This document shows positions 2,504 through 20,266 of a DNA stretch of 20,266 nucleotides, piece after piece. The notes under the pieces were generated by a model. It did not search any database, was not told where the DNA came from, and worked only from the letters and a program-made list of their open reading frames with translations. Source of the stretch: a virus; IMG/VR virus record IMGVR_UViG_3300044971_000125, positions 1-20,266 of that record, one strand, 5' to 3'. Position 1 is the stretch's first letter. Each line of letters opens with the position of its first letter. The position numbers and the translations under genes are program-made.

Positions 2504-3466
2504 ATGGCATTAGTAGGCGCAGCATACCCCGGCGGTAGTACATCTATCGTCAACAAAACAAACGCAGACAAGTTCATTCCAGAAATCTGGTCTGATGAAG
2601 TTATCGCTGCTTACAAGAAAAACCTAGTATTGGCTAATCTTGTTCGCAAAATGTCTTTCAAAGGCAAAAAAGGCGATACACTGCACATCCCTAAACCAAC
2701 TCGTGGCGTTGCAAGCCTCAAGGCTGCCAACACCGCTGTAACGGTTCAAGCTGATACCGAAAGTGAAGTACAGCTTTTAATCAACCGTCACTTCGAGTAC
2801 TCACGTTTCATCGAGGACATCGTCGAAGTTCAAGCGCTGTCGTCACTCCGTTCTTTCTACACGGAAGATGCTGGTTACGCTTTGGCTAAACAAGTTGATG
2901 ACGACCTCATCGCCTTGGGTAAGTCTTTTGGCGACGGCGACGCTTCTGATTGGGTACACAGCAATGCGTACTTCATCGATGCAACTACAGGTTTGACACT
3001 GTACGCTCTTGACACTGTAACCACCTCTGACTTGTTCACTGACGCTGGTTTCCGTAAGCTCATCCAGTTGATGGACGACGCTGACGTACCTATGGATGGT
3101 CGTAAGTTTGCAATCCCTCCATCACTGCGTAACGCAATCATGGGTATTGACCGTTATAACTCCAGCGACTTCGTTGATGGTCGTGGCGTAAACAATGGTC
3201 AAATCGGTAAGTTGTATGGCATTGACATCTATGTGTCAAGCAATATGCCTGTTATCGAAACAGCCTCTGATAACTCTGTTGGCGACGCAATCAAAGCCGC
3301 TGTTTTGTTCCATACCGACACAATGGTATTGGGCGAGCAGTTAGGTGTTCGTTCACAGACGCAATATAAACAGGACTATCTCTCCACCCTCTACACAGCC
3401 GATACCTTATTTGGTACGAAGGTTGTTCGCCCTGAGGCTGGTTTTGTTCTTGCAGTAAACGCCTAA
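2504..3466 (+). CDS. Major capsid protein
   Basis: A 320-residue coat protein, expected to have the HK97 fold and to form the icosahedral shell. The start region reads AAYPGGSTSIVNKTNADKFI followed by PEIWSDEVIAAYKKNLVL, a pattern seen in many podovirus coat proteins, and the RSQTQYKQDYLSTLYTADTL region near the C-terminus is also typical. There are no internal frameshift signs and no cysteines in the coat core. The leader AAAGGAAAAATATC before the ATG is almost repeated before the genes at 12406 and 14287. It sits directly after the scaffold and is followed by a terminator at 3480-3509, consistent with a very highly expressed gene. Confidence 0.92.
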   Translation: MALVGAAYPGGSTSIVNKTNADKFIPEIWSDEVIAAYKKNLVLANLVRKMSFKGKKGDTLHIPKPTRGVASLKAANTAVTVQADTESEVQLLINRHFEYSRFIEDIVEVQALSSLRSFYTEDAGYALAKQVDDDLIALGKSFGDGDASDWVHSNAYFIDATTGLTLYALDTVTTSDLFTDAGFRKLIQLMDDADVPMDGRKFAIPPSLRNAIMGIDRYNSSDFVDGRGVNNGQIGKLYGIDIYVSSNMPVIETASDNSVGDAIKAAVLFHTDTMVLGEQLGVRSQTQYKQDYLSTLYTADTLFGTKVVRPEAGFVLAVNA

Positions 3467-3479
3467 AAAGCAACTAGGT

Positions 3480-3509
3480 GGGAGGCTCGAAAGAGCTTCT
3501 CATCTTTTT
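3480..3509 (+). terminator. Rho-independent terminator after the capsid gene
   Basis: GGGAGGCTC (3480-3488) pairs with GAGCTTCTC (3493-3501), two G-U pairs included, around a GAAA tetraloop, and a T-run follows (3505-3509). It lies 14 bases after the capsid stop codon, the same place as the T-phi terminator of T7. It probably lowers expression of the genes beyond. Confidence 0.75.
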
Positions 3510-3525
3510 AAAAATGTGTTATACT
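3497..3525 (+). promoter_or_regulatory. Extended -10 promoter for the HNH/tail-fibre segment
   Basis: TGT-TATACT at 3517-3525 is an excellent extended -10. A weak -35 (TTCTCA, 3497-3502) lies 17 bases upstream and falls inside the descending arm of the terminator. Transcription should begin near 3532, leaving a leader of about 18 bases before the GTG at 3550. Confidence 0.65.
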
Positions 3526-3549
3526 TAGCATATTTCTAAAAGGATTCTA

Positions 3550-4047
3550 GTGAAATATTGTTGGAAATGTACTTCTACTAAACCGAAGCTAGATTTTGGT
3601 GTTAACAAATCTAAACCTGATGGATTAGCTACAGAATGTAAACCTTGCAAAAGGCAACAAGATAGAGAATACGCAGCACGAAACAGAGAGACTGCAAAAC
3701 AAAGAGCTTCAGAATGGTACTATAATAATTACGAGTATGCCTTACAGCGTAATAGAGAAAATAATAAACTTTGGCTTAAGAATAACAAAGACAAGCATTG
3801 CGCTTATCAAAACAAAAGAAGAGCTGTTAAATTACAAGCAACGCCTAAGTGGTTAAAAGAAGAACACTACAAGCAAATAGAATCGTTTTACTGGCTTGCT
3901 AAACTGCAGTGCGAATTAACAGATACTAAATATGAAGTGGACCATATAGTTCCATTAAAAGGTAAAACAGTTTGCGGATTACACGTACCTTGGAACTTAC
4001 AACTACTTACAGAACGAGAAAATCGTTCTAAATCTAACAGAATTTAG
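3550..4047 (+). CDS. HNH endonuclease with N-terminal zinc ribbon (probable free-standing homing nuclease)
   Basis: A 165-residue protein starting at GTG, with AAAAGGA eight bases upstream. The N-terminus is a zinc ribbon (C4-x2-C7, C30-x2-C33) of the kind found in phage homing nucleases. A basic, Asn/Arg-rich helical linker follows. The C-terminus carries the HNH signature VDHIVPLKG (D131-H132), H145, N149 in WNLQLL, and a terminal ENRSKSN stretch, as in McrA-type HNH nucleases. It should nick or cut DNA using a divalent metal. Its codons are A-rich (many AAA, AGA, AAT) and unlike the capsid gene beside it, a sign of separate origin. It sits between the capsid and a fibre gene that lacks a normal start codon, which suggests insertion here. 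Confidence 0.88.
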   Translation: MKYCWKCTSTKPKLDFGVNKSKPDGLATECKPCKRQQDREYAARNRETAKQRASEWYYNNYEYALQRNRENNKLWLKNNKDKHCAYQNKRRAVKLQATPKWLKEEHYKQIESFYWLAKLQCELTDTKYEVDHIVPLKGKTVCGLHVPWNLQLLTERENRSKSNRI

Positions 4048-4067
4048 AAAGGCAGGGTAAATCTATT
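4048..4067 (+). promoter_or_regulatory. Ribosome-binding site positioned for an AUU start codon
   Basis: AAAGGCAGGG (4048-4057, allowing for one base at the 5' edge) lies 7 bases before ATT at 4065-4067. The frame downstream has no ATG, GTG or TTG until about 5025, so this site and the ATT are the best candidate for initiation of the fibre gene. The reading MSIYRGAGGAGD would match the usual start of such fibre proteins. Confidence 0.55.
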
Positions 4068-5348
4068 TCCATTTACAGAGGAGCAGGTGGTGCAGGAGAT
4101 GCCGTAGCAGACTCCGCAAGTGAAGCCTTATTAGTTCGTGACTTAGCTGTAGAAGTTCAAGCCGATGCTGACGCTGCTGCTGCAAGTGCCACAGCTGCTG
4201 CTGGCTCTGCTAGTGCTGCATCTTCTTCAGCTAGTGCAGCAAGTACTTCAGCAAGCAATGCTTCAACCTCTGCAACCAATGCAAGTAACTCAGCGTCTAC
4301 CGCAACAACACAAGCAACCAATGCAGCAAACTCTGCCACTGCAGCTCAGACTGCAGAGACTGCTGCTGAACTAGCAGAAACAAACGCAGAGACTGCAGAG
4401 ACTAATGCAGAGACTGCTGCAACCAACGCAGCCTCCAGTGCTTCTGCTGCTAGTACTTCTGCTACCAACGCTGCATCCAGCGCATCTGCAGCATCCACTT
4501 CAGCCACTAACGCAAGCAACTCAGCTACGGCTGCTTCTACGAGTGCATCCAATGCTTCTACGTCAGCTACTTCTGCTTCAGGTTCAGCATCGTCGGCTAC
4601 TACGTCTGCAAGCAATGCTTCCACATCAGCAACCAACGCAAGTAATTCTGCTACTTCAGCTTCAACATCAGCTACAACAGCCACTACTCAAGCAGGTATA
4701 GCAACAACACAAGCATCTAATGCTTCTACCTCAGCCAGTAACGCAGCTACTTCAGAGACTAATGCAGCAGCTAGTGCATCTACAGCAACCACACAAGCCA
4801 CTAACGCAAGTAACTCTGCAAGCGCAGCATCGACCTCAGCTACTAATGCCAGTAACTCTGCCTCTGCTGCAAGCACATCAGCTACCAATGCAGCTAACTC
4901 TGCTACCCTAGCAGCAACATATACACCAAGTCAAACAGGTAACTCTGGTAAGTTCATTACTACCGATGGTACAAATACTTCTTTTGCAAATGTTCCCATC
5001 TCTGTTACTGGCGGTGATTTAACTTTGTCAGGAAGTTCTGGTGCTGCAATCACTAACGCAACTCTAGCCACAGTAAATGCTACTACTGGTTCTTTTGGTT
5101 CTGCTACTTCTATTCCTGTAGTTACAGTTAATGGTAAAGGATTAGTTACTGCCGTCACTACCGCTACCGTACAGGGCGGTCAATACTTTGGTGCTGCAGC
5201 ATCTAAAGCTATTGCATACAATGAAGACTCTATTGCAGAGAACATAACAACCACAAGCGGTAAGAACTGTTTATCTGTTGGACCAATAACGATTGCGTCT
5301 GGATTTACAGTCACTATTGCTTCTAACCAGCGATGGATTATATTATGA
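4065..5348 (+). CDS. Tail-fibre protein with Ala/Ser-rich 14-residue repeats, probable AUU start
   Basis: A 427-residue protein if started at ATT 4065. The first ~40 residues (SIYRGAGGAGDAVADSASEA and on) match the N-terminal style of phage tail fibres that attach to the tail. Residues ~40-285 are Ala/Ser/Thr/Asn repeats like those of lambda side-tail-fibre proteins, with a double-heptad period fitting a long trimeric fibre shaft. The last ~140 residues (GKFITTDGTNTSFANVPISV, then SIPVVTVNGKGLVTAVTTAT) are a beta-rich fibre module. The stop overlaps the next start as TTATGA. The frame is open back to 4038 but holds no canonical start codon for ~320 codons, so AUU initiation, or a start codon damaged when the HNH gene entered, must be assumed. 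Confidence 0.75.
   Translation: MSIYRGAGGAGDAVADSASEALLVRDLAVEVQADADAAAASATAAAGSASAASSSASAASTSASNASTSATNASNSASTATTQATNAANSATAAQTAETAAELAETNAETAETNAETAATNAASSASAASTSATNAASSASAASTSATNASNSATAASTSASNASTSATSASGSASSATTSASNASTSATNASNSATSASTSATTATTQAGIATTQASNASTSASNAATSETNAAASASTATTQATNASNSASAASTSATNASNSASAASTSATNAANSATLAATYTPSQTGNSGKFITTDGTNTSFANVPISVTGGDLTLSGSSGAAITNATLATVNATTGSFGSATSIPVVTVNGKGLVTAVTTATVQGGQYFGAAASKAIAYNEDSIAENITTTSGKNCLSVGPITIASGFTVTIASNQRWIIL
4180..4910 (+). repeat. Degenerate 42-base coding repeats (Ala/Ser/Thr/Asn fibre shaft)
   Basis: Units such as SASAASTSATNASN recur about every 14 residues (two heptads) with synonymous codon variation. Variant units read TATTQATNAANSA or AETNAETAATN. 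The period suggests a trimeric coiled-coil shaft. The DNA is repetitive enough to allow slippage or unequal recombination that would change fibre length. Confidence 0.7.
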
Positions 5349-9041: not shown

Positions 9042-9392
9042 ATGAGACCATTATCAGTTGGTAAGAACTTAGTAGCAAACACCAAGACTACCTTGTTTAC
9101 TGTTCCCACAAGGCAGATTGCTAAATGGAATCTCCTTTGGGCTGTTAACAACACTTCTTCTGCTAAGAACTTTACCGCATGGTGGTATGACAAGAGTGAA
9201 GATGTCGAAGTCAGGGTTATCCTAAACTACCCTTTAGCAGCTAAGACATTCTTAAAGTTTGATGGCGGTGCTTATGTGACTTTAGAAGAAGGTGATGAAA
9301 TTAGAGTACAAGCAGAGACAGGCGCAGATTGTTCTGTTCTCTGTACGTTTGAATTACAAGCAACTTCCGCAGTTCAATACAATCAATATTAA
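9042..9392 (+). CDS. Probable small virion protein, beta-rich
   Basis: A 116-residue protein of predicted beta-sandwich character: [20 protein letters not shown], then [20 protein letters not shown], and [20 protein letters not shown]. Proteins of this appearance ('tail/virion structural, FTVP...Y..LEEGD.I') recur next to tail genes in phages of marine and freshwater bacteria and are usually left unnamed. It lies 3 bases after the membrane-protein gene and 2 bases before the run of Lys-rich miniproteins. It may be a head decoration or head-tail joining protein; that is inference. Confidence 0.65.
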
Positions 9393-9394
9393 TC

Positions 9395-9535
9395 ATGCCA
9401 CTCAAATCCGGTAAATCACAAAAGACTATCTCTAGTAACATTCGAAAAGAGATGAAGTCAGGAAAGCCGCAGAAACAGGCTATCGCAATCGCTTTATCCA
9501 AAGCTGGACAATCTAAACCTAAGAAAAGGAAGTAA
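9395..9535 (+). CDS. DUF6496-like basic miniprotein
   Basis: 46 residues: [20 protein letters not shown], then [20 protein letters not shown] and KPKKRK. The 'SGKS..TIS.NIR.E...[15 protein letters not shown]' pattern is widespread in phages and is known as DUF6496, without a known function. It is very basic (about one Lys in four residues). It is the first of four small Lys-rich genes in a row. The ATG lies 2 bases after the upstream stop, with no strong ribosome-binding site, so translational coupling is likely. Confidence 0.75.
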
Positions 9536-9537
9536 TT

Positions 9538-9681
9538 ATGCCAATGGTCAAAGACAAGAAGTTCCCTTACACAGCTAAGGGTAAGAAAGAAGCTAAGTCG
9601 TATGCTATGAAGACTGGAGCTAAAGTATCTACTCCTAAAGCTAAACCAGCTAAAAAGATGGGGTCGATGCGTGGCTACTAA
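9538..9681 (+). CDS. Lys-rich miniprotein 2
   Basis: 47 residues: MPMVKDKKFPYTAKGKKEAK, then SYAMKTGAKVSTPKAKPAKK and MGSMRGY. The MP.VK.KKFPYT.KGK.EAK start is a pattern I recall from other phage genomes, usually annotated hypothetical. It is preceded by AAAAGGAAG within the last codons of the gene before, a plausible ribosome-binding site. It overlaps the next gene by 11 bases. Its high positive charge suggests nucleic-acid or acidic-surface binding; this is inference. Confidence 0.7.
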   Translation: MPMVKDKKFPYTAKGKKEAKSYAMKTGAKVSTPKAKPAKKMGSMRGY

Positions 9682-9823
9682 ACCCGGCTTGTATGCCAAT
9701 ATCGCAGCCAAGAGAAACCGTATCAAGGCTGGTTCTGGTGAGAAGATGCGTAAAGTAGGCTCTAAAGGCGCTCCTTCGGCTAAAGACTTCAAAGACGCTG
9801 CTAAGACAGCTAAGAAGAAGTAA
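9671..9823 (+). CDS. Lys-rich miniprotein 3 (GTG start)
   Basis: 50 residues from GTG 9671: MATKPGLYANIAAKRNRIKA, then GSGEKMRKVGSKGAPSAKDF and KDAAKTAKKK. The 'KPGLYANI.AKR.RI..GSGEKMRK.G.KGAP' pattern recurs in many phages as a small protein of unknown function. The start lies inside the end of miniprotein 2 and the stop shares a base with the next start (TAATG). Its C-terminus is histone H1-like in composition (Ala/Lys). Confidence 0.72.
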   Translation: MATKPGLYANIAAKRNRIKAGSGEKMRKVGSKGAPSAKDFKDAAKTAKKK

Positions 9824-12405: not shown

Positions 12406-13071
12406 GTGGCGGACTACAACAAGGCAACAAATTTTACAGCTAAGGATGCCTTACCAACAGGTAACGCAGGTAAGATTGTTAAAGGCGCAGAGATTGATAC
12501 CGAACTTACTGCAATTTCTAATGCGATTGCATCTAAAGCAGATATTAATAGTCCGGGATTAACAGGTACGCCTACAGCACCTACAGCATCTGCTGGTACT
12601 AACACAACTCAGTTAGCTACTACAGCGTTTGTAACTGCTGCTTTGTCTGCTGTATATCCAGTAGGTTCTATCTATGTTAATGCTGCTGTATCTACTAACC
12701 CAGCAACTTTACTAGGTTTTGGTACATGGACAGCTTTTGGTGCTGGTCGTGTCATGGTTGGTTTTGATTCTGCTGATGCACTGTTTGACACACTAGAAGA
12801 AACTGGTGGTTCTAAAGATGCTGTTGTTGTGTCACATACACACACTGCAACAGTGACAGACTCAGGTCACGTCCATGTTCAGAATGGACAAACCCTTGAC
12901 CCTTCAGGTGCGGGAGGTGTTAGCGGAGGAACAGCATCGCCAACCGCTTCTATGTCAACACAGTCTGCTGTAACTGGTATTTCTGTAACGAACGCATCTA
13001 CAGGTGTGAGTGCCACTAACGCCAACGTACAACCATACATTACTGTTCGTATGTGGAAGCGTACAGCTTGA
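12406..13071 (+). CDS. Tail fibre/collar-domain protein
   Basis: 221 residues starting at GTG, with AAAAGGAATATATC upstream. The N-terminal half (MADYNKATNFTAKDALPTGN, GAEIDTELTAISNAIASKAD, then a GTPTAPTASAGTNTTQLATT stretch ending in AFV) is the classical fibre linker before a tip. The C-terminal half has YPVGSIYVN, LLGFGTWTAFGAGRVMVGFD and an EETGGSKDAVVVSHTHTATV block. These are features of phage collar/gp10-C-terminal type domains, in which His pairs bind metal in the trimer. It is likely a receptor-binding tip attached to the tubular tail proteins encoded just before it. Confidence 0.82.
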   Translation: MADYNKATNFTAKDALPTGNAGKIVKGAEIDTELTAISNAIASKADINSPGLTGTPTAPTASAGTNTTQLATTAFVTAALSAVYPVGSIYVNAAVSTNPATLLGFGTWTAFGAGRVMVGFDSADALFDTLEETGGSKDAVVVSHTHTATVTDSGHVHVQNGQTLDPSGAGGVSGGTASPTASMSTQSAVTGISVTNASTGVSATNANVQPYITVRMWKRTA

Positions 13072-18702: not shown

Positions 18703-19089
18703 TTATTCTCCTAAATTAAATCTACCAGCATGAACTTTTGCGTGGCAGTTGCGACACAATACTACACATTTTACAGCTTCTTTTAAAAATGTCTCAAACT
18801 TACCTACTCTACTGGGGTCTTTATCCTTAGTAGACGGGTCTGTGTGGTGCATATCTAAACAAGCAGCGTCATTCTCACCACACTTCACACACCCTCTAGC
18901 AGCTTTCCACTCTGAAATCTTGCGTCGTTCTTCCGTGAAATAACCACGAGCTTGTTCAGGGTTGTTGTCTCTCCATTTCTTTGCAGTCTTGTTGACACAT
19001 TCTTTACAAGCCGAGCGTGGCTTGCTGTGAAAAGCCTCTAAAGGCTTCTCCAGCTTGCACGAACTACATACTTTAGATTTCACAGCCAC
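18703..19089 (-). CDS. HNH endonuclease starting inside the reductase 3' end
   Basis: 128 residues from GTG 19089 (an in-frame GTG at 19083 is an alternative). The N-terminal zinc ribbon has C8-x2-C11 and C28-x2-C31. The C-terminal domain has C67-x2-C70, LDMHHTDP (H81-H82), and VVLCRNCHAKVHAG (C112-x2-C115, N114, H116, H120), the zinc-stabilised HNH fold of free-standing phage homing nucleases. The first 17 bases overlap the last codons and stop of the reductase gene, so it is translationally coupled to it, and acb2 starts one base after its stop. Such genes commonly cut an allele lacking themselves near their own site; here the likely target is the reductase tail region. Confidence 0.88.
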   Translation of the reverse strand: MAVKSKVCSSCKLEKPLEAFHSKPRSACKECVNKTAKKWRDNNPEQARGYFTEERRKISEWKAARGCVKCGENDAACLDMHHTDPSTKDKDPSRVGKFETFLKEAVKCVVLCRNCHAKVHAGRFNLGE

Positions 19090-20266
19090 CTGCAGTACAG
19101 CTCAAGGTTTGGACACCTTCGACGTTATCGTCATACTCTTTGAAGTTCTCCCAATCTACTGTATCAGGTACTAACATCTTGAGTTGGCGATAAGTATCTT
19201 CGCTACACTCTTCATACGGAGCTTGTTTGTAGGTTCCACCATCCATCGGTAAGAAAGACACACCAGTTACTTCATCGAAGTGCTTAAATGTCCATGCTCC
19301 AACATCCATCCACTCGTTCTCTAACACAGAGATAGTTACTGACGGCTTATGCTCACAGTAGTGACGCTGGAACAACAACCACAAACGCAAGTGTTGAATC
19401 GCAGACAAATCTTCACGCAACAATGCACCGTCAGCTACAGCAACAGGGAAGCTAAATACTGTTGTTGAATCAGGTTTCATTACGCAAGGCTCAGCAACGA
19501 ACCCAGCTTGAATCATGAATTGAGTGAGAGGGTCTTTGTTATCAGCTCTGACCCGTCGAATATAGTATTTACTATGCTGAGGATGTATGCCAGAGGCAGT
19601 AGAACAGAGCTGAGATACGGTTCCCTCGGGCTTGATGGCTGTGACAGCAACACTTTGATTAATACCAATAGCAGAAGCGAATTCAGCATTGACACTGATA
19701 GCGATATCACGAAGTTTCTCCAATCGTGCAGGTAATCCTTCATCATCAGGATTGTTAAGTAAAGTATTGTCGCAAATACCTGTCATTGATACACCTAAGA
19801 GTGCTTCTTCTTCAGTGTTCTTTTGCCAGATTTTACGCAGATACGGGAAGTCTGTTAACGACGCTTGAAAAGTTCCCAAGATTGTTGCCAGCCTGATTTT
19901 ATTGCTGATGGTATCGAAAGTGTCGTCAGAACGAATGATACAAGAAGACAAATTACAGAACTGATAGGGACGAAGAATAATCTCAGAGCAAGGATTAGTA
20001 CCAAACGCATACGACGCATCCCTACGACCATTCTTCGCAGCTTGCTTTTGACTTGCTTCACGATTGAAGATACCACGCTCTCCACTGTGTGATTCATAGA
20101 TTGAACTCCATTCACGCATGAATTGACCAATAGATGGAGTCTCAACATAGGTAGCGGAGTTATTCGCTAACGCACGTTGTCCTTGACCATCCCACCAGTT
20201 ACCTGCCTTAGCGTGAGCCATCTTGTCGTCTGTTAAATCAGACAGGCTAATCATTGCCGACCGTCG
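19073..20266 (-). CDS. nrdJ: Class II (adenosylcobalamin-dependent) ribonucleotide reductase, C-terminal part
   Basis: The frame is open to the window edge; four residues (RRSA) precede the first internal Met, so the gene continues outside. It reduces ribonucleotides to deoxyribonucleotides for phage DNA synthesis, with vitamin B12 as radical source. NPCSEI carries the catalytic Asn, thiyl-radical Cys and Glu (N87, C89, E91 counting from that Met). C100, eleven residues on, is the partner cysteine, the same spacing as C408/C419 in the Lactobacillus enzyme. KPEGTVSQL and SGIHP are the substrate-binding loops. The C-terminal SCTAGGC holds the redox shuttle pair. The gene's last codons are overlapped by an HNH gene, and a divergent copy of its tail lies about 600 bases downstream. 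Confidence 0.92.
   Translation of the reverse strand, partial: RRSAMISLSDLTDDKMAHAKAGNWWDGQGQRALANNSATYVETPSIGQFMREWSSIYESHSGERGIFNREASQKQAAKNGRRDASYAFGTNPCSEIILRPYQFCNLSSCIIRSDDTFDTISNKIRLATILGTFQASLTDFPYLRKIWQKNTEEEALLGVSMTGICDNTLLNNPDDEGLPARLEKLRDIAISVNAEFASAIGINQSVAVTAIKPEGTVSQLCSTASGIHPQHSKYYIRRVRADNKDPLTQFMIQAGFVAEPCVMKPDSTTVFSFPVAVADGALLREDLSAIQHLRLWLLFQRHYCEHKPSVTISVLENEWMDVGAWTFKHFDEVTGVSFLPMDGGTYKQAPYEECSEDTYRQLKMLVPDTVDWENFKEYDDNVEGVQTLSCTAGGCEI

Follow-up and report, generated by a model that had tools for sequence, protein, structure and literature searches.

The 20,266-base virus record analysed here at its full length (the window) carries a major capsid protein gene followed by a free-standing HNH endonuclease gene and a fibre-like structural gene (Table 1). 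The identity of the latter as a fibre is probable but not proven: it comes from the repeats of the protein, its position in the genome and matches to PHROG tail-fibre families (best 4.7e-18), which lie mainly across the repeats, and no Pfam match was found for it. Relatives were collected from IMG/VR by searches with the capsid, the fibre N-terminus and the HNH protein, and by a pattern search at the DNA level for the conserved N-terminus; the fibre N-terminal sequence [M/I]-S-I-YRGAGGAGDA is common to more than 140 of them. Close isolate phages were not found, since isolates gave no DNA match, no match to the fibre N-terminus, and capsid identities below 60% (for example 28.7% for Mastigocladus phage CHP58 and 32.8% for Anabaena phage A-4L). 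A search of GTDB genomes with the major capsid protein gave a single marine MAG contig (from a Crocinitomicaceae bin, L299, 70% identity), which was not trusted as a host. Elsewhere in the window, the gap between listed open reading frames at 9353-9823 is occupied by small basic proteins, some 46 and 50 residues long, and a second HNH endonuclease gene (18703-19089, minus strand) overlaps the end of 19073-20254 (minus strand), which reaches the contig end and which, naming it by eye from its sequence, I take to be a ribonucleotide-reductase-like gene. In what follows, ATH denotes ATT, ATA or ATC, and AUH the same codons in RNA.

Table 1. Features of the capsid-fibre region of the window.
Feature	Position	Strand	Description
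Major capsid protein gene, upstream of HNH and fibre genes	2504..3466	+	phrog_267 1.7e-50; Pfam Phage_capsid_2 2.4e-11
Cassette 5' side	3467..3549	+	GC-rich hairpin then T-run (~3480-3511); promoter-like -10 TATACT (3520-3525); AAAAGGATTCTA HNH leader
Free-standing HNH endonuclease gene	3550..4047	+	165 aa, GTG start, inserted at fibre start
Shine-Dalgarno region AAAGGCAGGG	4048..4057	+	Within 3' end of HNH cassette; 7 bases between AGGG and ATT
ATT (AUU) putative start codon	4065..4067	+	Aligned on ATG/TTG start of relatives
Fibre-like structural gene	4065..5348	+	427 codons including initiator, stop 5346-5348, as read from AUU 4065

The initial annotation had described the fibre frame as open and coding from 4038 with no ATG, GTG or TTG before about 5025, and had pointed to a sequence seven bases upstream of ATT 4065. 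Both observations were borne out. The open frame runs from 4038 to its stop at 5346-5348, the first standard start codon within it is TTG 5025, and AGGCAGGG at 4050-4057 precedes the ATT at the spacing described. Over 427 codons the window and its relative L290, both with ATT, differ by a dN of 0.044 and a dS of 0.220, which indicates that purifying selection has acted on the fibre between these two ATT-started sequences. A pseudogene or a sequencing error, with the ATG lost and the fibre dead, would account for the missing ATG and for nothing further, and is very improbable in view of this selection, of the frames of hundreds of codons that are kept intact and of the presence of the same codon in independent contigs; its recurrence in three more of these (L290, L293 and L006/L277) rules out an error in a single contig. 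The long start-free stretch is in itself unsurprising, since it results from repeats rich in Ala, Ser, Thr and Asn and is common to relatives with ordinary starts: the median distance to the next standard start downstream is 183 codons in ATG-started relatives, 300 in TTG-started and 306 in ATH-started ones. What is beyond chance is the start position itself, which coincides with the start codon of the relatives and, in the scans described below, is confined to start-competent triplets unless another standard start is nearby.

Nearly all the relatives' proteins begin M-[S/A/P/G]-I-YRG[AP]GG, and in the alignment ATT 4065 coincides exactly with this M. The aligned codon in 147 distinct viral relatives is ATG in 85, TTG in 34, ATT in 10, ATA in 8, ATC in 3 and GTG in 1, the remaining 6 being extended at the N-terminus, where an ATG or TTG at codon -15 serves as start. 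A sample of 76 distinct relatives obtained with the pattern, blind to the codon, comprised 51 ATG, 16 TTG, 1 GTG, 6 ATH and 2 extended forms. Were this an ordinary position inside the protein, further triplets would be expected at the site, and all of IMG/VR was scanned for the same N-terminus with other triplets at the start position. These scans were complete for 44 triplets including GTG and CTG; with all NTG and ATH codons set aside, 57 triplets remain, of which 42 were covered in this way. T-first codons were covered in the sample only, where all were TTG or extended forms. A codon beginning with C or G was present at the site in four contigs, two with GTG and two with an ATG at -15, and one beginning with AA, AC or AG in four others, all with an ATG at -4. 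Hence no member without another standard start was found in IMG/VR for any of the 42 triplets, while ATH was present in 22 contigs. In the ATH set, the stretch from the upstream stop to the motif has no in-frame standard start except in L082, where a TTG at -20, inside the leader hairpin, is the sole nearby alternative of the set; downstream, the next standard start is at least 91 codons away. From the position of the codon and its restriction to start-competent triplets I infer initiation with fMet at the AUU. The start at AUU 4065 that was proposed initially is thus strongly supported by the relatives, on whose start codon the ATT falls, and on the evidence of sequence, translation of the fibre very probably begins there.

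Two further features of this site deserve mention. TTG is common (34 of 147), yet GTG is nearly absent (1 of 147; two contigs when all of IMG/VR was scanned) and CTG was found neither in the 147 relatives nor in the complete scan. In L040, L092, L105, L107, L108, L224 and L380, a minority of the relatives, the usual MSIYRG start is replaced by an extended N-terminus that contains a PKxKH motif (e.g. MFCDFPKHKHLKC, MWADFPKFKHRKQ), with an HNH gene upstream in four of these fibres.

The predicted duplex of the Shine-Dalgarno sequence with the anti-Shine-Dalgarno has an energy of -8.3 kcal/mol in the window, versus a mean of -6.4 in ATG-started relatives. Mean energies are -8.1 kcal/mol for ATH starts and -8.0 for TTG starts (p 2e-6 and 9e-9, respectively; here and below, the p-values take no account of relatedness among contigs, save for the independent-pair test on the capsid tree). 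The stronger Shine-Dalgarno sequences at ATH and TTG starts look like a compensation that would restore output. Positions -2 and -1 are pyrimidines in 21 of 21 ATH starts and 30 of 34 TTG starts, ATG being mostly preceded by A; the extended pairing made by the initiator tRNA is known to involve base -1. The folding of the mRNA around the start differs little, with a mean MFE of -8.6 for ATH and TTG and -9.3 for ATG. A general relaxation of start use in these phages was rejected, as only one unrescued ATH was found in the remaining gene families of these loci. This is an ATC in L290/L317 (IMGVR_UViG_3300021141_000110), where a second tail gene, homologous to the window gene at 12406, has an apparent ATC start (AAGGGGAATAAC-ATC-AGCGACTAT) with no alternative, the sole ATH among 83 sequences; the fibre of that genome starts at ATT.

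These data bear on the possibility of dosage control, according to which a weak AUH or UUG start would be selected to hold the fibre low relative to the adjoining major capsid protein, IF3 discriminating against AUU. Frequent weak starts are indeed confined to the fibre gene, and hairpins are found in the leader between capsid and fibre in HNH-free relatives. AUU and AUA starts of Staphylococcus aureus, which have extended Shine-Dalgarno sequences, reach about 10-30% of the AUG level in reporters (PMC13009471), and IF3 represses non-canonical starts (PMC5472188). However, ATG suffices in most relatives, the near absence of GTG and the lack of CTG are not predicted by a simple tuning of strength, the Shine-Dalgarno sequences seem to compensate for output rather than lower it, and ATH goes with the HNH gene, as described below. 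Selection for low dosage is therefore conceivable but rather unlikely as the origin of these codons. As to the expression level of the fibre under the AUU start, I infer that a low dosage may nonetheless be a consequence of the AUH codon, because published AUU and AUA starts are weak and non-canonical starts are repressed by IF3.

The HNH protein matches phrog_1035 endonuclease VII (5e-21) and phrog_2255 (3.2e-7), and its score against Pfam HNH_4, 19.6 bits, is under the cut-off of 22. Its relatives are found at the identical site in 20 loci and are absent from about 100. The 5' side of the cassette, with its hairpin, T-run and promoter-like stretch, is almost unchanged in the window, L290, L012, L009 and L024; the promoter-like match is no better than in shuffles and the hairpin is unlisted by the scan, so that both are weak as features. 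In L006, the sequence AAACAAGTTAAGGAGATTC-ATG-AAACAT leads into the HNH gene, versus AAACAAGTCAAGGAGATTAA-ATG-TCAATC leading into the fibre in HNH-free L067 (in shorter form, AAGGAGATTC ATG AAACAT and AAGGAGATTAA ATG TCAATC): the HNH gene of L006 is placed behind what serves relatives as the fibre's own leader. Likewise, L298 reads GAGGCTGAATGA-TTGAAACAT(HNH)...TTTTAGGGGAATATT-ATT-TCTATCTAT, versus GAGGAAGTTTAA-ATG-TCTATCTAT in its sister L099. The 3' end of the cassette carries a Shine-Dalgarno sequence and ATT or ATA, the former overlapping the HNH stop in several types (TAGGAGAATATC). The Shine-Dalgarno-related sequence AGGYAGGGTAAA is found in L006, L054, L102, L290, L293 and L295, and also in L059 and L291, which are HNH-free. 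In the latter two, the ATA follows AGGAAGGTAGGGTAAAACC, as it does where the cassettes of L054, L102 and L295 end on their 3' side, and both contigs appear to bear the footprint of an HNH gene since lost. L291 has almost the same capsid as L079 and L080, which start with TTG, and a source of the 18 bases ATTCTTACTGTCTATTAG that precede its footprint was not found outside L059 and L291. Similarly, GGAGAATATC-ATA is common to L297, L082 and the L289 cassette. The junctions of these relatives show what appears to be capture of the old fibre start by the HNH gene, the direction of events being presumed.

The proximity of the two genes raises the question of whether they are expressed as one. The HNH stop lies 12-20 bases upstream of the fibre start in most loci, and in L012, L289, L296 and L298 both are in the same frame with a TAG between them, as a fusion by readthrough or frameshifting would have it. 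However, the frame offset from HNH to fibre varies among ATH loci, taking the value 0 or 2, the stop of the window (TAG 4045-4047) being in a frame other than the fibre's; inspection of 4035-4047 revealed no slippery heptamer, and ATH loci without HNH occur. A fusion to the HNH product, which the initial annotation had named as an outcome that would speak against the AUU start, is thus unsupported and highly improbable. HNH genes often reside within group I introns, and a self-splicing intron could join an upstream ATG exon to the fibre. This is the least probable of all the alternatives, given that no Rfam match, hence no intron core, was found in the window and that the capsid-fibre gap is only about 90-120 bases in several ATH loci.

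The start codon was compared between loci with and without the HNH gene. HNH-carrying loci comprise 12 ATH, 2 ATG, 2 TTG and 4 extended forms, and HNH-free loci with a short capsid-fibre distance 61 ATG, 31 TTG, 1 GTG, 8 ATH and 1 extended form; the ATH locus L235 has a longer capsid-fibre insert of another kind. Since the samples from the HNH search and the ATH scan are biased by design, the test was repeated on those from the capsid search and the codon-blind pattern. In these samples, blind to both start codon and HNH, ATH was present in 4 of 8 loci with HNH versus 6 of 92 without (p 0.003). HNH presence at this one site is patchy, and on the capsid tree it changes 14 times and ATH 15 times, counts that exceed the number of independent events because fibre genes recombine, and that, for the same reason, reflect altered junctions which need not stem from new mutations. 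In independent pairs, ATH and HNH change together in about 7 cases to 0-1 (median p 0.016). The HNH gene does not force ATH, since L009 and L048 carry it with ATG kept and L024 and L112 carry it with TTG. Conversely, ATH is found without HNH in L030, L032, L082, L235, L238, L294 and L297, and only some of these have a recognisable cassette end. The initial suggestion that the ATG was lost upon entry of the HNH gene therefore holds in large part: the HNH gene is at the fibre start and ATH is associated with it, but 8-9 ATH loci have no adjoining HNH gene and some HNH loci retain ATG or TTG.

The same association could arise if the HNH endonuclease recognised DNA across the fibre ATG, a codon with an altered third base resisting cleavage while still initiating. 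The position of the HNH gene exactly at the start would fit, and the HNH-free ATH genomes L059, L291 and L297 could be resistant relics; yet L009 and L048 carry HNH with an intact ATG, no cleavage site is known, and the insertion alone could destroy the site. Cleavage resistance is accordingly an unlikely cause. Its stronger form, in which a homing endonuclease targeting the start codon would drive repeated conversion of ATG to AUU, AUA or AUC and leave these start-competent, cleavage-resistant codons as footprints that outlast it, is equally unlikely.

The explanation that I favour, and consider probable, is initiation at AUU 4065 with the help of a strong Shine-Dalgarno sequence, the AUU having arisen from HNH insertion and start capture. 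The initiator tRNA would read the AUU; the mobile HNH gene would have integrated at the fibre start and taken the old leader or start for itself, so that the fibre would now depend on the 3' end of the cassette for both a substitute ribosome-binding site and a near-cognate AUH codon. Footprints would presumably remain after loss of the HNH gene. The origin by HNH capture is the less certain part of this proposal, compared with AUU initiation.

AUH starts are known from only a handful of bacterial genes. The codons AUU, AUA and AUC, with a strong Shine-Dalgarno sequence beside the weak start, are found in infC, pcnB and S. aureus cvfC1 and ccpN as they are here, but those genes are cellular and their codon is often conserved, whereas the fibre is a phage structural gene whose codon shifts repeatedly among ATG, TTG, ATT, ATA and ATC. 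Within phage structural genes, T4 gene 26 has an internal AUU start; that start is secondary, not the main one as proposed here. Streptomyces sigR resembles the fibre in having a non-canonical start in an operon where the ratio between partners matters, but its codon is GTC, it encodes a cellular regulator, and a role of IF3 has been demonstrated there (PMC5472188). Free-standing endonuclease genes between conserved phage genes are also known, such as the T4 mob (HNH) and seg (GIY-YIG) genes, which must not disturb their neighbours; the disturbances discussed for them concern promoters, terminators and RNA structures (PMC2988022). Here, unlike in T4, the HNH gene occupies the very place where the downstream gene begins, and that gene is left with a near-cognate start. 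AUH starts and intergenic HNH genes are thus each known; searches of open-access papers turned up no account of a phage structural gene in which AUH starts recur, nor any that ties such starts to a homing endonuclease.

Gene finders limited to ATG, GTG and TTG miss or truncate such genes. The series ATG, TTG, ATT, ATA and ATC, occurring naturally at one site with matching changes in the Shine-Dalgarno sequence, offers material for studies of start-codon selection. In this phage group, AUH starts occur at a frequency of about 8% (6 of the 76 relatives sampled blind), change at many points of the capsid tree and are associated with a mobile HNH gene, which suggests how mobile genes reshape the translation of their neighbours.
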